IMG/VR virus record: IMGVR_UViG_3300022841_000045
Location: 1 to 31,909 of that record
DNA: 31,909 nucleotides
DNA from: a virus
Reading direction: 5' to 3' (one strand)
This document shows, piece by piece, positions 22,328-31,909 of this stretch. The notes beneath the pieces were generated by a model. That model ran no database searches, had not been told where the DNA came from, and was given only the letters and a program-made list of their open reading frames with translations. The position numbers and the translations under genes were made by a program. Position 1 is the first letter of the stretch; each line of letters starts with the position of its first letter.

Positions 22328-22873
22328 ATGATGAGCAGTAGTTATATTATCAGCGACCTTCACATTGGGCACGGCTCAATAATTAAGTACAGACCTGAGT
22401 TTTCTTCGATTGAAGAACACGACGAACTTTTGAAAGAAAATATTAAACTTGCGGGCAGCAAAAGAAATCAACTCTGGATGCTAGGTGACTGTTTCTTCAC
22501 TTGGGAATCGTATAAGTTTCTTCAAGAAATTGCGCCATATTATGAGCGTATTAATTTTGTTCCAGGTAACCACGATACGGACAACGCCGAGAGAGTTGAG
22601 ATTTTAAAAGAGTCTATCAAGCAAGGATATTACGCAAAGGTAGGTTCCATGTTCAAACAGTCAGGTTTTTGGTTGACTCATCCTCCAATTCATCCAGATG
22701 AACTTAGGGGCTGTATTAATATCCATGGTCACGTTCACGGAAACACTGTGCGCGACCCGGGCTTCATTAATGTATCTTGTGAAAACGTAAGGTATAAGCC
22801 TGTAAATTTACATCAATTAAAAGAACAACGCTTTAGAGAATCATTACTTGTGGAGTACGGTTATGAAGATTAA
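22328..22873 (+). CDS. Calcineurin-like metallophosphoesterase
   Basis: A 181-residue protein with all five blocks: SDLHIGH (D10, H12), LGD (D54), GNHD (80-83), THPPIH (H118) and HGHVHG (133-138). It is the length of small bacterial and phage metallophosphatases. It could hydrolyse phosphodiesters or phosphomonoesters, including cyclic nucleotides used in anti-phage signalling; the sequence does not fix the substrate. SD AGGAG. It overlaps the next gene by 11 bases. Confidence 0.9.
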   Translation: MMSSSYIISDLHIGHGSIIKYRPEFSSIEEHDELLKENIKLAGSKRNQLWMLGDCFFTWESYKFLQEIAPYYERINFVPGNHDTDNAERVEILKESIKQGYYAKVGSMFKQSGFWLTHPPIHPDELRGCINIHGHVHGNTVRDPGFINVSCENVRYKPVNLHQLKEQRFRESLLVEYGYED

Positions 22874-24332: not shown

Positions 24333-24361
24333 ATTCACTCAAAAAGCCTAGTTTGGATAAA

Positions 24362-24769
24362 ATGAAAACAATTGAAAATGTAACTATACACAAACCTTCA
24401 AACCTATGTGAATCTTTTAATTATTTGGTTTCATTCATCGGTAGAGTTTGCGAAGAACTAAATATCTATGACTATGAAGGCTTCGTTGATATTGAATTTC
24501 TTCACGACTTGGATGGACACGGCGGAGGATCAAGCGGTGACGACCAAACCGCTTACGTTTCAATCGCTCAACATGACTCTCAAGGCGTGATACCAATCGA
24601 CGAAATGCTGCGCAACATAGCTCACGAGTTGGTACACGTACAGCAATTCTTGTCTGGTCGCCTTGATGATTTTACATGGGAAGGCGTTGATTATTTTGGA
24701 ACGCCTTACTTAGAACGTCCATGGGAAATTGAAGCCTATGAAATGGAAGAAAAATTATGTCTAATGTAG
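24362..24769 (+). CDS. HExxH zinc metallopeptidase-like protein
   Basis: A 135-residue protein containing NIAHELVHVQQFL (residues 85-97): HExxH with H88, E89 and H92, and a downstream RPWEIEAYEMEE (119-130) whose Glu (E122 or E124) would be the third zinc ligand, as in minigluzincins. The Gly-rich HDLDGHGGGSSGDDQ sits before the site. It is small, like single-domain phage and toxin peptidases. Target unknown. ATG at 24362 is preferred over TTG at 24353; the SD is weak (GGAT). Confidence 0.72.
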   Translation: MKTIENVTIHKPSNLCESFNYLVSFIGRVCEELNIYDYEGFVDIEFLHDLDGHGGGSSGDDQTAYVSIAQHDSQGVIPIDEMLRNIAHELVHVQQFLSGRLDDFTWEGVDYFGTPYLERPWEIEAYEMEEKLCLM

Positions 24770-25934: not shown

Positions 25935-26954
25935 ATGAGACAGATGGCAACAGTACGAATGATTAGCGACGTGAGCCCAATCGAAAACGCTGACGCAATT
26001 GAAGTCGCGACCGTAGACGGCTGGAAAGTTGTAATCAGAAAAGGTGAATACAACGAAGGACAGATAATTGTTTTTTGTGAAATTGACAGTTGGATACCTA
26101 TAGATTTGGCACCGTTTCTATCTAAAGGAAAAGAACCTCGCACGTATGAAGGCGTGAAAGGTGAACGCCTCAGAACAATTAAATTGCGCGGGCAAATTAG
26201 TCAAGGTCTAATATTATCTACTGAACTCCTAACTGACTTTTGGGATATCGGTGACGATGTTTCTGAAATTTTGAATATCGCTAAATACGATCCTCCCGTA
26301 AATGCTCAACTTGCAGGTATGGCCAAAGGTAATTTCCCTCCGCAAATAAGAAAAACAGATCAAGAAAGAATTCAAAATTGTATGTCTCATGTTGCCAACT
26401 ATTTGACTTCTCCTGAATCATGGGAAATTACAGAAAAATTAGAAGGCAGTTCAATGACCTGTTATCTAATTGACGGTGAATTTGGTGTATGTAGCAGAAA
26501 TCTCGATCTTAAAGAGACCGAAGGTAATGGCTTTTGGGAATGCGCAAGACGTTTAGATATCGAAACAAAGATGAGAAATTGTGGATTTATTGATGGTAGA
26601 TATTGGGATAATATTGCGATTCAAGGTGAGCTTATCGGACCAGGCATTCAGAAAAACATCTACAAACTTGATAAAACTCAATTTAAGGTATTTGATATAT
26701 TCGATATACAAACACAACGATACTTAACCCCAGATGCAAGATTCGAATTTAAACGTGTTGGGATAGATTCAGTGCCTGTTTTATACTATACGCCTCTGTC
26801 TGTACGATATACAACTGCTTCTGATATTATTAAAGATGCAGACGGAATGAGTATTCTAAATAGTACTAATCGAGAAGGTTTAGTATTTAAAAGCCATGAC
26901 GGCCAAAAAAGTTTCAAAGCAATAAGCAATAAATATCTGTTGAAAGAAAAATAA
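25935..26954 (+). CDS. RNA ligase, DRB0094/Rnl5 type
   Basis: ATP-dependent ligase of 339 residues, the length of Deinococcus DraRnl (342). The N-terminal about 130 residues are an OB-type domain (VATVDGWKVVIRKGEYNEG). The nucleotidyl-transferase part has motif I EKLEGSS with the AMP-binding K168, motif Ia SRNLDL, motif III IQGELIGPG (E232), IIIa FKVFDIFD, motif IV EGLVFK (314-319) and motif V SFKAISNKY. This class seals 3'-OH/5'-phosphate RNA ends, preferring nicks in duplexes. It has its own strong promoter. Kinase and phosphatase partners lie 4.3 kb downstream. Confidence 0.9.
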   Translation: MRQMATVRMISDVSPIENADAIEVATVDGWKVVIRKGEYNEGQIIVFCEIDSWIPIDLAPFLSKGKEPRTYEGVKGERLRTIKLRGQISQGLILSTELLTDFWDIGDDVSEILNIAKYDPPVNAQLAGMAKGNFPPQIRKTDQERIQNCMSHVANYLTSPESWEITEKLEGSSMTCYLIDGEFGVCSRNLDLKETEGNGFWECARRLDIETKMRNCGFIDGRYWDNIAIQGELIGPGIQKNIYKLDKTQFKVFDIFDIQTQRYLTPDARFEFKRVGIDSVPVLYYTPLSVRYTTASDIIKDADGMSILNSTNREGLVFKSHDGQKSFKAISNKYLLKEK

Positions 26955-26965
26955 AGGTTGGGATT

Positions 26966-27142
26966 ATGTTTGAAAGTAAGAAGTTTAGAATTGTATTATC
27001 ACTGATAATACTGTGTCTTGTTTCAGTGACTATCGTATTAGCATATCAAGTTAGTGTTCCTATGATGACCGTGATAGGAGGTTGGCACCTCGGTAGGTTT
27101 ATAGGAAAGAAACTTGATTCGTATGTAGAGGGGAAAGAATGA
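26966..27142 (+). CDS. Small membrane protein, 58 residues
   Basis: ATG with GGTTGGGA ahead. After a short basic MFESKKFR comes a membrane helix (about 9-29), then a second weak hydrophobic stretch with Gly (MTVIGGWHLGRFIGKKL). It ends with an ATGA-type overlap onto the next gene. Function unknown. Confidence 0.65.
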   Translation: MFESKKFRIVLSLIILCLVSVTIVLAYQVSVPMMTVIGGWHLGRFIGKKLDSYVEGKE

Positions 27143-27300
27143 GAGTTACTACAAAGAGACCAAATCACGCCAAATTCAGTCCAGCTCTAACTGATGAAGA
27201 TGGCTATATGATATTACCTGAAAATTGTAACAAAAACAAAGAATTCTCGATGCGTATATTAAGCATGATATACAAGAGGATTGACGGCACCCGTGGTTGA
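27139..27300 (+). CDS. Small basic protein, 53 residues
   Basis: A strong GAGGGG lies before the ATG, which overlaps the previous stop. The protein starts MRVTTKRPNHAKFSPALTDE and ends SMIYKRIDGTRG; basic, no motif. Placement and ribosome site support it. Confidence 0.6.
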   Translation: MRVTTKRPNHAKFSPALTDEDGYMILPENCNKNKEFSMRILSMIYKRIDGTRG

Positions 27301-27309
27301 AAGGATTAA

Positions 27310-27792
27310 ATGATGAAATATAGTTATAAGTTCGATAACACAAAAAAGAATTATGGCGCAAGATACAAACTAAGATTGGACAAGCATGACAGCTGGGATT
27401 TCGGCTGCACACTTTCTCCTGTTATATTGCCGATGCTGAAACAGTTGAGAAAAAATAAAAAAGGAACACCATTAACTGATAAATTGGATGTTCCTTTTTT
27501 ATTACAACTTGATCCAGAAGAAAAACATGAAGGTTTTAGTGAAAAGCGCTGGGCCTGGATTCTTGATGAGATGATCTTTTCATTTAATCATACTTACAAA
27601 TGTCAAAACGATCCAGACTACAATGAAGACTACTTTTACGCGACTGGTGCAATTGAATATATAGGAAAAAATATGAAAGAAGGTAAAAATCATACTTATA
27701 AATGCGATGACGATAAAATGTTTCAGTTTTATCAGAGAGTAGATCGTGGGTTTGTATTGTTTGGCAAATATTTTCAAAATTTGGTATGTTGA
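27310..27792 (+). CDS. Conserved phage protein of unknown function
   Basis: A 160-residue protein with a pattern I know from many phages: DSWDFGCTLSPVILPMLKQL, then KGTPLTDKLDVPFLL, RWAWILDEMIFSFN, and the ending RVDRGFVLFGKYFQNL. It appears in diverse phages without assigned function. ATG at 27310 or 27313, SD AAAGGA. Confidence 0.78.
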   Translation: MMKYSYKFDNTKKNYGARYKLRLDKHDSWDFGCTLSPVILPMLKQLRKNKKGTPLTDKLDVPFLLQLDPEEKHEGFSEKRWAWILDEMIFSFNHTYKCQNDPDYNEDYFYATGAIEYIGKNMKEGKNHTYKCDDDKMFQFYQRVDRGFVLFGKYFQNLVC

Positions 27793-27905
27793 TGAACAGC
27801 CTAGCAAATCAGCATTGCAAAACATATTATAGATATTTAATATGTTTGTGGTATCAACTCCCAACAAGCAGAGTCAACAATTACGAAGACGGCTACTGGG
27901 ATTAA
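27792..27905 (+). CDS. Possible micro-protein, 37 residues
   Basis: An ATG overlapping the previous stop (TGATG) opens a short frame with aromatic-rich CKTYYRYLICLWYQLP and an acidic NYEDGYWD end. There is little SD, so translation would depend on coupling. Low certainty. Confidence 0.4.
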   Translation: MNSLANQHCKTYYRYLICLWYQLPTSRVNNYEDGYWD

Positions 27906-27920
27906 CATAAAGAGAATATA

Positions 27921-27971
27921 ATGAAAACTCAAGAAGAAGATTGGGGTTTCGGTGAAGCTTACTTAGACTAG
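27921..27971 (+). CDS. Possible peptide, 16 residues
   Basis: MKTQEEDWGFGEAYLD between a modest AAGAGAATATA ribosome site and a strong terminator. The DEDWG-like start also occurs in the 48-residue protein at 4660 (DEDWGSLDEY). It may be a leader or spurious. Confidence 0.35.
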   Translation: MKTQEEDWGFGEAYLD

Positions 27972-27978
27972 AGAAAAG

Positions 27979-28006
27979 GTTGCAGACGTTTGTTTGCAAC
28001 TTTTTT
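27979..28006 (+). terminator. Strong rho-independent terminator
   Basis: GTTGCAGAC (27979-27987) pairs with GTTTGCAAC (27992-28000), nine pairs with one G-U, around GTTT, followed by TTTTTT (28001-28006). It closes the RNA-ligase unit; a family promoter starts 20 bases later. Confidence 0.85.
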
Positions 28007-28025
28007 AGTATAGTGCATAAAAGGG

Positions 28026-28053
28026 TTGACTCTACTTGGGACTTTGATATAAT
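28026..28053 (+). promoter_or_regulatory. Repeated-family sigma70 promoter (11)
   Basis: TTGACT (28026-28031), 16-base spacer, TATAAT (28048-28053), TGA extension, leader TTGTATTGAATCAAAAC. Directly after the terminator. Drives 28088 onward. Confidence 0.88.
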
Positions 28054-28087
28054 AGTTGTATTGAATCAAAACACAAAAGAGAAAATT

Positions 28088-28375
28088 ATGTTCCTCAATA
28101 AAGCTGAAAGAAAATTACTTAAAGAATCTATCAACCGTATCGGTTTTACATACGGAAGAATTTACGGTCAATCTAACAAAAGTAAAATCTCATATAACGC
28201 TTGCTTATCACTTCTATCCAAAGGCCTTATTGAAGGCGAATCAAAAACCATTTTTCAAAAAGCAAATCCTAACGCAAAAGGCCTTGCCGCAAAATTTGGA
28301 GTTTCATATCAAACTTTCGTTGGCGAAATCAAGAACATAGATAACCTTAAAATGTCACTCGATCATGAAGTTTAA
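28088..28375 (+). CDS. Protein of unknown function, 95 residues
   Basis: The ATG at 28088 lies after the promoter; a longer frame from 27980 would start in the terminator and is false. The protein is basic with MFLNKAERKLLKESINRIG and a C-terminal AAKFGVSYQTFVGEIKN that has the feel of a small helix-turn-helix (GVSYQTF). A DNA-binding role is possible but weak. Confidence 0.68.
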   Translation: MFLNKAERKLLKESINRIGFTYGRIYGQSNKSKISYNACLSLLSKGLIEGESKTIFQKANPNAKGLAAKFGVSYQTFVGEIKNIDNLKMSLDHEV

Positions 28376-28679
28376 AATTATGAGTTGGAAGACTGTTAAT
28401 GTCATATTAGCTTGTGTGATTGTAGTGTTTTTTATATACAGCTATAACACACCTGGTACTCAAAAAACTCCATTGGAGGTTCATTTTGACGAAGTACACA
28501 GATACAACGGACTGGAGTGTATCACGTATAGAAATAGCGATAAAGATTTTGGTATGACTTGCGATTGGGAAAAGCACAACAGACAAGTAGAACAATGTGA
28601 AGCGGAAAGTTTAAAGAGACGAACCACAAAAGATGGGCGAGTATTTCCAGCTGTCAAAGGCGAATGTAAGAACTACTAG
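28365..28679 (+). CDS. Membrane-anchored protein, unknown
   Basis: A 104-residue protein with one N-terminal membrane helix (about 9-26, TVNVILACVIVVFFIYS) and a soluble domain with three or four Cys (C52, C66, C78, C101), consistent with a periplasmic, disulphide-bearing domain. ATG at 28365 overlaps the previous gene; ATG at 28380 is an alternative. Confidence 0.68.
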   Translation: MKFKIMSWKTVNVILACVIVVFFIYSYNTPGTQKTPLEVHFDEVHRYNGLECITYRNSDKDFGMTCDWEKHNRQVEQCEAESLKRRTTKDGRVFPAVKGECKNY

Positions 28680-28692
28680 AGGTAATTAAACA

Positions 28693-28959
28693 ATGAAAAC
28701 CGAACACGAATTTATTGCAGATTTGAATCAATTTCTAGCATGCAGCAATGAAGATCTATGCATATCAGGTGAGGTTGAATCCAAGATGACTTATTATACA
28801 CTGGTGCTAAACAGTCCTTGGGCATTCAAAGACATGGTTTATATGTCAGACGTATTGCGAGATCATATTTCATTTAAAGCGAGAAAAGAACTACCGACTA
28901 AATGTTTAGAGTTCAATAATGCAAGAAAAGTTTTTTGGTTTAGCGAAGATAATTGTTGA
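28693..28959 (+). CDS. Protein of unknown function, 88 residues
   Basis: Acidic start (MKTEHEFIADLNQFLACSNE), strand-rich middle and a basic helix (LRDHISFKARKELPTK). SD AGAGGTAA. Its stop TGA (28957-28959) lies inside the next -35 box. No motif. Confidence 0.7.
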   Translation: MKTEHEFIADLNQFLACSNEDLCISGEVESKMTYYTLVLNSPWAFKDMVYMSDVLRDHISFKARKELPTKCLEFNNARKVFWFSEDNC

Positions 28960-28983
28960 CTTGAAGGTGAGTTTTGATATAAT
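28956..28983 (+). promoter_or_regulatory. Repeated-family sigma70 promoter (12)
   Basis: TTGACT (28956-28961), 16-base spacer, TATAAT (28978-28983), TGA extension, leader TTGTATTGAATTAAAC then AACAAACGGAA, identical to the copy at 29224. The spacer start TGAAGGTGAG equals that at 7320. Confidence 0.88.
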
Positions 28984-29019
28984 AGTTGTATTGAATTAAA
29001 CAACAAACGGAAATAAATC

Positions 29020-29220
29020 ATGCATAACATTTTAGATTACAGCGTACAAACTCTTTTTGATCCGGTGCAAACTCACGCTGCATATAGAGTACCAAGTTAC
29101 GCAGTCGATGAATTGAAATCTGTATTGAAATCTGAACATGCCGCAACAAGATTTCGTATAGTTGGTAAATTAAAAGACGACGAGCTCGTAATTGTCTGTT
29201 TTAAATTAAAATCAAAATAA
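29020..29220 (+). CDS. Protein of unknown function, 66 residues
   Basis: Single-gene cassette between two family promoters. Starts MHNILDYSVQTLFDPVQ; the second half is basic with ATRFRIVGKLKDDELVIV, strand-rich. No family recognised. The ribosome site is CGGAAATAAATC. Confidence 0.7.
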   Translation: MHNILDYSVQTLFDPVQTHAAYRVPSYAVDELKSVLKSEHAATRFRIVGKLKDDELVIVCFKLKSK

Positions 29221-29223
29221 TGG

Positions 29224-29251
29224 TTGATTTTAAGATTAGGCTTGATATAAT
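29224..29251 (+). promoter_or_regulatory. Repeated-family sigma70 promoter (13)
   Basis: TTGATT (29224-29229), 16-base spacer, TATAAT (29246-29251), TGA extension, leader TTGTATTGAATTAAAC then AACAAACGGAATAATTATG. The -35 has one mismatch. Drives 29286 onward, up to the end of the window. Confidence 0.85.
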
Positions 29252-29285
29252 AGTTGTATTGAATTAAACAACAAACGGAATAATT

Positions 29286-29495
29286 ATGCGAAATGTATTT
29301 AAAAAAGGTTTATCTTACCACGAATTCACTTTCAACCCACATTCAGGTATTCTTGATATAGTCACAGACGACTCTATTGATAGAGATTTCTTGATACTCG
29401 AACTTCAAGAATTGGCTTCCAATATGGGTTTTATGAATTATGAAATCCTTCACTTCGAAGACGACAAAAAACTGGAGATTGTCATATGCGGTTAG
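29286..29495 (+). CDS. Protein of unknown function, 69 residues
   Basis: Acidic second half (DDSIDRDFLILELQELASN) after a short basic start (MRNVFKKGLSYHEF). Overlaps the next gene by 10 bases. No motif. Confidence 0.7.
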   Translation: MRNVFKKGLSYHEFTFNPHSGILDIVTDDSIDRDFLILELQELASNMGFMNYEILHFEDDKKLEIVICG

Positions 29496-30028
29496 TCACT
29501 GTTAATGATAAAATGCAGTCGAATTATCAATACGGCTGCCCCGCAAATGTAGGCGATTTGCCAGACAACTTCAATCCTACAGCGACTCCAAAAGATATGC
29601 TTGAAATGGGCGTCTTTGGCGGAAAATACATGACCGACTGTCGTGATGAATTTCCTGCTGTTTGGTTCGATAATGCTAAATTGGATTCAAAGAAATACAA
29701 CGTAAATCTTAATTTCTTCAAATGCAAGGCAAGTCAAAATCTTAAAGAGTGGCGTGATAGTGGCTGGATTCACGAACAAGATCCGCGCGGTTGGTTTCAA
29801 TGGTACTGCCGTTTCTATATGGGTCGCCGCACCGATGATGATGCTAGACAAATTATGCGCTGGAAAAAAATTAAGCGACATTTGACTTATATTACTAATC
29901 GTTTTGAAATGGACACGTGGACAAAAAATACTGGCAGTCCTGTGAGACGTCAGGCGTTACTCCATTGGGGTATCAGAGTTGATGGTACATACACAGCGGA
30001 AGAATTATTGGAGAGTCTAAGTAAATGA
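29486..30028 (+). CDS. Conserved protein with RGWFQWYCR motif, unknown function
   Basis: A 180-residue protein: FNPTATPKDMLEMGVFGGKY, then ASQNLKEWRDSGWI, DPRGWFQWYCRFYMGRR, QIMRWKKIKRHL and VRRQALLHWGI. This ordered, Trp-rich pattern is one I recognise from proteins in phages, bacteria and eukaryotes, all unassigned. It has no signal or membrane segment. The many invariant Trp, Arg and His suggest a defined enzyme or binding fold. Start overlaps the previous gene; SD TGGAGAT. Confidence 0.8.
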   Translation: MRLVTVNDKMQSNYQYGCPANVGDLPDNFNPTATPKDMLEMGVFGGKYMTDCRDEFPAVWFDNAKLDSKKYNVNLNFFKCKASQNLKEWRDSGWIHEQDPRGWFQWYCRFYMGRRTDDDARQIMRWKKIKRHLTYITNRFEMDTWTKNTGSPVRRQALLHWGIRVDGTYTAEELLESLSK

Positions 30029-30465
30029 ATGGTTTAAATAAAGTTCAACTATTATCGTATTTGATAGAAACCTTAGAATTATCAAACTCAAGGGAAGAAG
30101 TTTTAGATATGAGAGAGTGGGTTCAATTTAGATATGAGAGCACACATTTTTGTGGTTATGCCGCCTGTATATGCGGCTTTGTGGCTTTGCGTACTCTATC
30201 GGATCGACAACCTACAGAGAATGATGAAGATTATGAGAATAGAATTAGAAACGAAGCTAGTGCTGTTGAAAGAGAAATAACTCGAGTGATTGGCCTTGAC
30301 CTATCTGATTCTATCACTGGGCCAGGGGAAAAGGTACGCAGGCACCGTGCTGTGGCATCAGGTTATTTCACGCCTGAGGAATTAAACCATCCTCACTTAA
30401 ACAGTGACACTTCCTTGAAAGAAGCAATATCTTATATGAAAATGTTAAGGTCTAAATTAAGATGA
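30025..30465 (+). CDS. Protein of unknown function, 146 residues
   Basis: A helical protein with STHFCGYAACICGFVAL (Cys-rich hydrophobic helix, about 35-52), an acidic middle (TENDEDYENRIRNEASAVE) and SGYFTPEELNHPHLN later, resembling a phage protein family in which a helix-loop follows an 'ACxxGxxAL' segment. No active site assigned. Four-base overlap with both neighbours. Confidence 0.7.
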   Translation: MNGLNKVQLLSYLIETLELSNSREEVLDMREWVQFRYESTHFCGYAACICGFVALRTLSDRQPTENDEDYENRIRNEASAVEREITRVIGLDLSDSITGPGEKVRRHRAVASGYFTPEELNHPHLNSDTSLKEAISYMKMLRSKLR

Positions 30466-30758
30466 GTAAATATTTTGCATTTGTCGAAGGTGTGCCTCAT
30501 GATTTTAAATTTAAAAAATTATCTGATGCACATCCATTTGATTATTCATTTCATCTTGGCGAAACGAGCATAGGATGCATAGGCAAAAGTGGCACCAGAA
30601 ATGATAACAGTTGGGTATGTATGGTTTATGGTGATGAGTACACATATAAACATAAAATACCTACGTTAGTTTACGGTTTTGTCAGCCGCCATAGAGCAAT
30701 TGACTACATGTTGATGGTACATCCATTAACCAAAGATACATATATGAGGAAAGATTAA
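30462..30758 (+). CDS. Protein of unknown function, 98 residues
   Basis: Strand-rich, basic/aromatic protein with FVEGVPHDFKFKKLSDA, GETSIGCIGKSGTRNDNSW and SRHRAIDYML. No motif recognised. Overlaps the upstream gene and precedes a membrane protein by one base. Confidence 0.7.
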   Translation: MSKYFAFVEGVPHDFKFKKLSDAHPFDYSFHLGETSIGCIGKSGTRNDNSWVCMVYGDEYTYKHKIPTLVYGFVSRHRAIDYMLMVHPLTKDTYMRKD

Positions 30759-30759
30759 A

Positions 30760-31197
30760 ATGAAAATTAGTACAAAGTCGTGGCATTACAGATGGTTAAG
30801 CAAATTGAAAATAGTACAAAGTCGAAGTTTGTGCGTATATTTATGGCAAGTCGTGTTTTCAACCACTATATTTCCTGGGATAGCGCTGTTAATTTTATCT
30901 GCTATTGTAATTTTGGCATTAGCATGCTTAGTTGGTATATTCACAGTACCCCTTACTTTGTTTGGTGTTGTGACACTTTCGCCTGATGGTATCTTAGCTG
31001 CTACATTAATATTCGGAACGGGTTCTTACGCATTGCTTGTATGGAATAGTGGAAGTTATGCATTAAAAATATATTCTCGTTATAAAAATCGCAGATACCT
31101 TAGCAGAGACTTTGTCCCAGTTGAAGATGGATTAGTCGTATCTTATATTAAAGCTAAGAAAGCAAAAATTTGCCCCTTTATTGATTTTACGGATTAA
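30760..31197 (+). CDS. Two-helix phage membrane protein
   Basis: A 145-residue protein: basic SWHYRWLSK start, membrane segments at about 37-73 (a hairpin) and 78-96, then a basic KNRRYLSRD and a C-terminal SYIKAKKAKICPFIDF. The C-terminal motif is one I recall in phage membrane proteins of unknown function. A 13-base direct repeat (TAGTACAAAGTCG) lies at its start, at 30768 and 30812, so the N-terminal 20 residues may have been altered. SD GAGGAAAG. Confidence 0.72.
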   Translation: MKISTKSWHYRWLSKLKIVQSRSLCVYLWQVVFSTTIFPGIALLILSAIVILALACLVGIFTVPLTLFGVVTLSPDGILAATLIFGTGSYALLVWNSGSYALKIYSRYKNRRYLSRDFVPVEDGLVVSYIKAKKAKICPFIDFTD

Positions 31198-31206
31198 GAG
31201 ATTATT

Positions 31207-31665
31207 ATGAGTAAATTATTAGTAGTGTTTGACATTGATGGAACTGTTGCAAACTTGGATCACCGTTTAAAATATGTGAGATGTAAACCAAAAAACTGGC
31301 CTGCTTTTAATAAGGCCATTAAATTTGATTTGCCTATTAAAGCAACCGTTGACGTTTGCATCCGTTATATTGAAGATCCAAATGTGTATGTAATCTTTGC
31401 ATCTGGGCGTTCTGACGATACACGAAAAGATACTGAAACGTGGTTGAGCGAAAATGGCATGGGAGAATATGATGATTTATACATGCGTAGATTCGGTGAC
31501 TATCGCTGCGACTCAATCGTAAAGAGAGAAATCTTATATGGTATCATAGAAAGTTATAAACAGATGCCTGATATGGTATTCGATGATCGTCCTCGTGTTG
31601 TCAAAATGTGGCGCGAAGAAGGCATCTGGGTATTTGATTGTAATCAAAGTGGAGTAGATTTCTAA
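31207..31665 (+). CDS. HAD-family 3'-phosphatase (PseT phosphatase-domain-like)
   Basis: A 152-residue HAD phosphatase: VFDIDGTVANLDHR (D9, D11), FASGRSDDTR (motif II), SIVKREIL (motif III Lys) and MVFDDRPRVVKMWREEG (motif IV, residues 127-143). Order and length match the C-terminal 3'-phosphatase domain of T4 polynucleotide kinase (PseT), here as a separate gene. It would remove 3' or 2',3'-cyclic phosphate from cleaved RNA. Its stop overlaps the kinase start (TAATG). Confidence 0.82.
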   Translation: MSKLLVVFDIDGTVANLDHRLKYVRCKPKNWPAFNKAIKFDLPIKATVDVCIRYIEDPNVYVIFASGRSDDTRKDTETWLSENGMGEYDDLYMRRFGDYRCDSIVKREILYGIIESYKQMPDMVFDDRPRVVKMWREEGIWVFDCNQSGVDF

Positions 31666-31909
31666 TGGAAACGAAACAAAAGTTCTGTCACGTAATGGTT
31701 GGTCTTCCTGCCTCAGGAAAAAGCACAATGACGTCTAAAGCATCAAAAAATATTTTTGTGTATTCGTCGGATGCTTATATAGAATCCGTAGCTAAATTGG
31801 AAGATAAAACATATAATGATGTTTTTATGGAAACGATTAAACCTGCTATTAAAGTTTGCGAAGTGGGTTTAACTCAAGCCATAGTGAACAATCAAGATGT
31901 TATATGGGA
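31665..31909 (+). CDS. P-loop kinase, probably polynucleotide 5'-kinase, partial (3' end beyond window)
   Basis: The first 81 codons of a gene cut by the window edge. The P-loop GLPASGKST (residues 13-21) is followed by VYSSDAYIESVAK (32-44), the substrate-binding segment of AAA_33/PNK-type kinases, and KTYNDVFMETI. Coupled one base after the phosphatase gene, it is likely the 5'-kinase half of a split T4-type Pnkp. Whether the whole kinase is intact cannot be seen. Confidence 0.72.
   Translation, partial: METKQKFCHVMVGLPASGKSTMTSKASKNIFVYSSDAYIESVAKLEDKTYNDVFMETIKPAIKVCEVGLTQAIVNNQDVIW

Follow-up and report, generated by a model that had tools for sequence, protein, structure and literature searches.

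The stretch analyzed here, referred to below as the window, is a 31,909-base phage fragment of an uncultured virus (IMG/VR record IMGVR_UViG_3300022841_000045), and its plausible genes all lie on the + strand in the list of open reading frames. Towards its end it encodes an RNA ligase, a PNKP-type phosphatase and a P-loop kinase (Table 1). An initial annotation made from the letters alone had placed these three genes with a spacing of 4.3 kb, and the open reading frames confirmed both the positions and the distance, the phosphatase gene starting 4.25 kb after the end of the ligase gene on the same strand. The sequence shows one base shared by the TAA of the phosphatase gene and the ATG of the kinase gene, so that kinase and phosphatase are unfused and occupy two frames with a one-base overlap. 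The contig ends within the kinase gene, of which 81 residues are present. No tRNA genes were found in the window, and the search for RNA families returned nothing at gathering score and one snoRNA match at chance level.

Table 1. Features of the window discussed in the text
Feature	Position	Strand	Basis
Rnl5-class (DRB0094/NgrRnl-type) ATP-dependent RNA ligase, predicted, 339 aa	25935-26954	+	Pfam, NgrRnl alignment, motifs
Stand-alone PNKP-type HAD 3'-phosphatase, predicted, 152 aa	31207-31665	+	HAD_PNKP, motifs compared with T4-type PNKP
P-loop 5'-OH polynucleotide kinase-like protein, N-terminal 81 residues	31665-31909	+	Walker A, relatives, model
Calcineurin-like metallophosphoesterase (phrog_547)	22328-22873	+	Homologs in phosphatase-kinase-Rnl1 clusters of relatives
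Protein of unknown function, family phrog_11543	27310-27792	+	Homologs recur near Rnl1 in several relatives

Identity of the ligase and of the two healing enzymes

In the ligase, Pfam placed an RNA_ligase domain at residues 162-330 (E = 2.5e-28) and a PHA02142 OB-fold domain at residues 4-94 (6.9e-28), and the Naegleria gruberi RNA ligase NgrRnl (5cot) aligned to residues 2-339 with an E value of 3.8e-76. This layout, with the OB-fold domain at the N terminus and the nucleotidyltransferase domain at the C terminus of a protein of about 340 residues, is that of the Rnl5 class, and the nucleotidyltransferase motifs are intact (motif I K168-LEGSS, QGELIG at 230, REGLVFK at 313 and SFKAISN at 326). 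By architecture and motifs we assign the protein to the Rnl5 class, which bears out its earlier description as a DRB0094/Rnl5-type ligase. Such enzymes are common in phages, with 333 phage records carrying one; the 40 matches listed of these 333 share 36-49% identity with the window ligase. DRB0094-family ligases have been reported to be enriched in theta-ribozyme phages (PMC10879173), and the RNA-family search revealed no ribozyme or tRNA link within the window.

The phosphatase matched Pfam HAD_PNKP at 3.1e-25 (89.4 bits, cut-off 27.6), and solved chains of Pnkp1 and T4 Pnkp also matched it. Its motifs DxDGT, SGR, YRCD (R-x-D) and FDDR align to those of the T4-type PNKP of Aeromonas phage AS-gz. 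A similar phosphatase domain occurs in 2,090 phage records, fused enzymes included. Together with the Walker A motif of the kinase and the two frames, the HAD_PNKP match upholds the earlier claim that a 3'-phosphatase and a P-loop kinase are here separate proteins.

The kinase fragment carries a Walker A sequence GLPASGKST at residue 13 and YSSDAYIE at 33; the P-loop and the catalytic Asp (SSD) are invariant or nearly so among its relatives. Its AAA_33 match (2.7e-5) fell slightly below the Pfam cut-off, and no confirmed relative was found with the 81 residues as query. Completion of the gene, which the initial annotation had proposed, did not succeed, as no overlapping IMG/VR contig was found when the final 26 bases of the window were searched for exactly. 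Full-length relatives, which are AAA_33 proteins, were instead drawn from phosphatase-bearing contigs. They retain GxxxxGKST, the Asp, WDQTNL, an Arg before PGKTIP, and EEGF. The initial annotation had allowed for a kinase that lacks catalytic residues downstream; WDQTN and the Arg before PGKTIP are kept in the relatives, where alone they can be read since they lie beyond the contig end, and their correspondence to T4 residues was judged by eye. Another residue that matters in T4 Pnkp is R38, an Arg three positions past the catalytic Asp. This position is Ile in the window kinase, and the Arg is not conserved across the relatives.

A structural model of one relative (L005) reached a mean pLDDT of 89; in the PDB it came closest to mammalian PNKP chains (E = 6e-8) and after these to PFKFB, zeta toxin and PSTK. 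A profile search yielded a similar group, namely PSTK, PNKP, Pnkp1 and T4 Pnkp. The P-loop protein is best read as a polynucleotide kinase, with the proviso that sequence does not prove its substrate. The matches of ligase, phosphatase and kinase are all far beyond chance.

Ligases in the neighbourhood of the healing genes

The ligase that accompanies the split healing pair was sought in relatives. A ligase of the T4 Rnl1 family (PF09511) was present in 23 of 30 phosphatase-bearing contigs and an Rnl5 ligase in one. The 25 closest phosphatases, whose loci include near-identical copies and are therefore not all independent, had Rnl1 within some 8 kb in 21 cases, the kinase in 20 and Rnl5 in none. 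Rnl1 was not seen near the remaining four (L012, L017, L018 and L025); of these, L012, which lies on the same contig as L134, has the kinase that matches that of the window best (48%). A separate survey centred on the kinase, grouped at 80% identity into 61 clusters and scored with iterated profiles over at most 6 kb, gave Rnl1 in 35 clusters, the phosphatase in 27, the metallophosphoesterase in 18 and Rnl5 in 2. For the 21 clusters most similar to the kinase used as query (at least 46% identity, L007 to L156) the figures were 19 for Rnl1, 18 for the phosphatase and none for Rnl5; distant kinases made up most of the survey clusters without Rnl1. Of 39 long loci, 12 had Rnl1 no more than 600 bp from the kinase, compared to 2.7 expected for random positions in the same loci. 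The gene order varied between phosphatase-kinase-Rnl1, kinase-Rnl1-phosphatase and phosphatase-Rnl1-kinase, which speaks for a functional connection and against inheritance as a single block. The Rnl1-class assignment was supported by a match of one such ligase to T4 Rnl1 (2c5u, E = 5e-32). The frames for the metallophosphoesterase, phosphatase and kinase are contiguous or overlapping at L005, and Rnl1 follows after 0.6 kb.

The initial annotation had the healing pair served by a sealer of a class other than that of T4. This was not sustained, as the split pair of the relatives goes with the Rnl1 class and almost never with Rnl5. Several relatives run on past the kinase into Rnl1, and it is at this point that the window stops; no Rnl1-class ligase was found in the window, which ends inside the kinase gene. 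The apparent use of a different sealer is thus probably due to the point at which the contig breaks off.

Rnl5 and Rnl1 do occur together. Of 15 phage records with Rnl5 that were tested, 8 also had an Rnl1-family ligase and 3 a fused T4-type PNKP; in phage AS-gz about 2 kb separate the Rnl5 and Rnl1-family genes. Phosphatase, Rnl5, Rnl1 and kinase all lie within 9 kb at L178, and Rnl1, a weak kinase match, the phosphatase and Rnl5 within 9 kb at L042. Synechococcus phage BUCT-ZZ01 (L087) carries Rnl1, the kinase and the metallophosphoesterase, with Rnl5 about 11 kb on. At L102 a kinase of the same family follows Rnl5 within 1.3 kb, and an Rnl1-like gene also adjoins the kinase. At L094, the closest relative of the window Rnl5, a kinase lies 1.2 kb after Rnl5 and no Rnl1 was detected across 87 kb of contig, so that an Rnl5-kinase pairing may exist. 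Absences at L094 and in the 15-record test are soft, as PF09511 alone misses divergent Rnl1-like proteins. The co-occurrence in 8 of 15 records and the few four-gene loci indicate that Rnl5 is an additional ligase, and this is most likely its position in the window phage too, as in several annotated phages.

Some further observations concern these ligases and their neighbours. The Rnl1-like ligase at L102:11813-12787, beside Rnl5 and the kinase, is divergent and has no Pfam match. In other relatives Rnl1 is split into two open reading frames (L008:5401-6184, L023:8181-8942 and L032:1193-1922), a similar ITGxY motif preceding each insert. The inserts measure 730-784 bp, and their longest frame is homing-endonuclease-like and on the opposite strand, by eye GIY-YIG-like in L008 and L032 and HNH-like in L023. 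An intron in these interrupted genes was considered and is unsupported, there being no Rfam intron match and opposite-strand homing-endonuclease-like frames instead. The calcineurin-like metallophosphoesterase is repeatedly found close to the kinase, phosphatase and Rnl1 genes (in the window, at L005:7444-8004 and at L102:14694-15290) and may be a partner in the processing of 2',3'-cyclic phosphates or RNA 3' ends. The phrog_11543 gene follows Rnl5 by a few hundred bases in the window and comes just after Rnl1 at L061:11871-12539 and L002:4917-5588; in 9 of the 61 clusters it was no more than 6 kb from the kinase, and a tie to RNA repair is a guess. A small protein with a HELVH metalloprotease-like motif (phrog_16532) is encoded at 24353-24769 of the window and has homologs directly 3' of the phosphatase gene in L044 and L045.

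Proposed role in RNA repair

We favour, with a probability of roughly 0.7, the reading that the window holds part of a heal-and-seal set of the T4 kind, with unfused healing enzymes, an Rnl1-class ligase to be expected past the contig end, and Rnl5 as an extra. An RNA-repair role is well supported by protein family and gene neighbourhood, since the kinase motifs are retained in complete relatives and a structural model of high confidence best matches mammalian PNKP. This part of the earlier proposal therefore stands, whereas its other part, Rnl5 as the partner of the healing pair, was not supported.

The set would most likely serve to reverse the cleavage of tRNAs by bacterial defences. Cleavage by PrrC-type anticodon nucleases produces 2',3'-cyclic phosphate and 5'-OH termini. 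The HAD phosphatase would take off the 3'-phosphate left by a host tRNA-cutting nuclease and perhaps also remove the 2',3'-cyclic phosphate, helped by the metallophosphoesterase, and the separate P-loop kinase would phosphorylate the 5'-OH. The anticodon loop would then be sealed by the Rnl1-class ligase, which in the window phage is probably encoded just past the contig end, and the upstream Rnl5 would act as an additional sealer, probably of nicks in duplex RNA. The tRNA arrays of 8-18 genes beside the phosphatase cluster in several relatives agree with a tRNA role.

Two alternatives give Rnl5 a larger part. It could be the dedicated sealer of the split kinase and phosphatase, with nicked duplex RNA and not anticodon loops as the target. 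The same-strand location of Rnl5 near the phosphatase, the kinases that follow Rnl5 at L094 and L102, and the lack of a visible Rnl1 in the window would fit such an arrangement. We nevertheless consider it doubtful, because no Rnl5 lies near the 25 closest phosphatases or in the 21 kinase clusters closest to the survey query, where Rnl1 is nearly always found, because an Rnl1-like gene adjoins the kinase at L102 itself, and because the window stops short of the expected position of Rnl1. It is likewise unlikely that Rnl5 is the sole sealer, replacing Rnl1 beside the split pair, perhaps as at L094, in a pathway for nicked duplex RNA.

Alternatively, the healing pair could act on DNA ends together with a phage DNA ligase, as metazoan PNKP does, and not in RNA repair. 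The likeness of the kinase model to mammalian PNKP, a DNA-repair enzyme, and the lack of conservation at the T4 R38 position point in this direction; the recurrent neighbour, however, is an RNA ligase of the Rnl1 class, and tRNA arrays lie beside several clusters, which makes a role at DNA ends quite improbable. The P-loop protein could instead belong to the AAA_33/zeta/PSTK group as a kinase of small molecules, proteins or aminoacyl-tRNA. PSTK, PFKFB and zeta toxin match it almost as strongly as PNKP does in fold and profile comparisons, and the window covers only 81 of its residues. This reading is nonetheless very improbable, since in many lineages the gene is closely linked to those of a PNKP-type phosphatase and an RNA ligase, and since the profile matches include PNKP, Pnkp1 and T4 Pnkp.

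Cutting of tRNA is a bacterial answer to phages, and phage repair sets help decide whether the defence works. The relatives form a large group of uncultured phages in which healing is divided between two genes, and these nonetheless stay associated with an Rnl1 ligase. With Rnl5 as an extra ligase, a testable question is what a second, nick-sealing ligase repairs that Rnl1 does not.

Comparison with known systems

The set resembles the tRNA repair system of T4 (Pnkp/PseT and Rnl1) in its predicted 3'-phosphatase and 5'-kinase and, in the relatives, in a sealer of the Rnl1 class. It differs from T4 in that kinase and phosphatase are separate, the equivalent of R38 is absent and Rnl5 is added; Rnl1 itself is not seen in the window, since the contig ends. 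The window ligase shares with the DRB0094/Rnl5 enzymes of Deinococcus radiodurans (DraRnl) and Naegleria gruberi (NgrRnl) the OB domain and motifs as well as a full-length NgrRnl match, and differs from them in being phage-borne.

Jumbo phages encode several RNA ligases with kinases and HAD or calcineurin-like phosphatases, which have been read as answers to tRNA cleavage, and specialised roles have been inferred for the multiple ligases of one phage (PMC7824862). In these repertoires the PNK-type HAD domain is usually fused to the kinase and most phage ligases are Rnl1 or Rnl2 (PMC7824862), whereas the window has an unfused PNK-type HAD and an Rnl5 ligase. A split set is also present in Roseobacter phage DSS3P8 (KT870145), in which a stand-alone PNKP-type phosphatase (gp099), Rnl1 (gp105) and the kinase (gp106) lie within 4.2 kb, the Rnl1 and kinase genes overlapping. 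Its gene order differs from that of the window, and DSS3P8 is absent from the 40 Rnl5 matches listed of 333. The DSS3P8 phosphatase is annotated as 'polynucleotide kinase' and the kinase-like gene as 'hypothetical' (L211, 568-1119 and 4217-4732), and the label 'polynucleotide kinase' is also found on other stand-alone PNKP-type phosphatases. Comparable sets thus already exist in named phages, and the genes of the window belong to a common phage toolkit.
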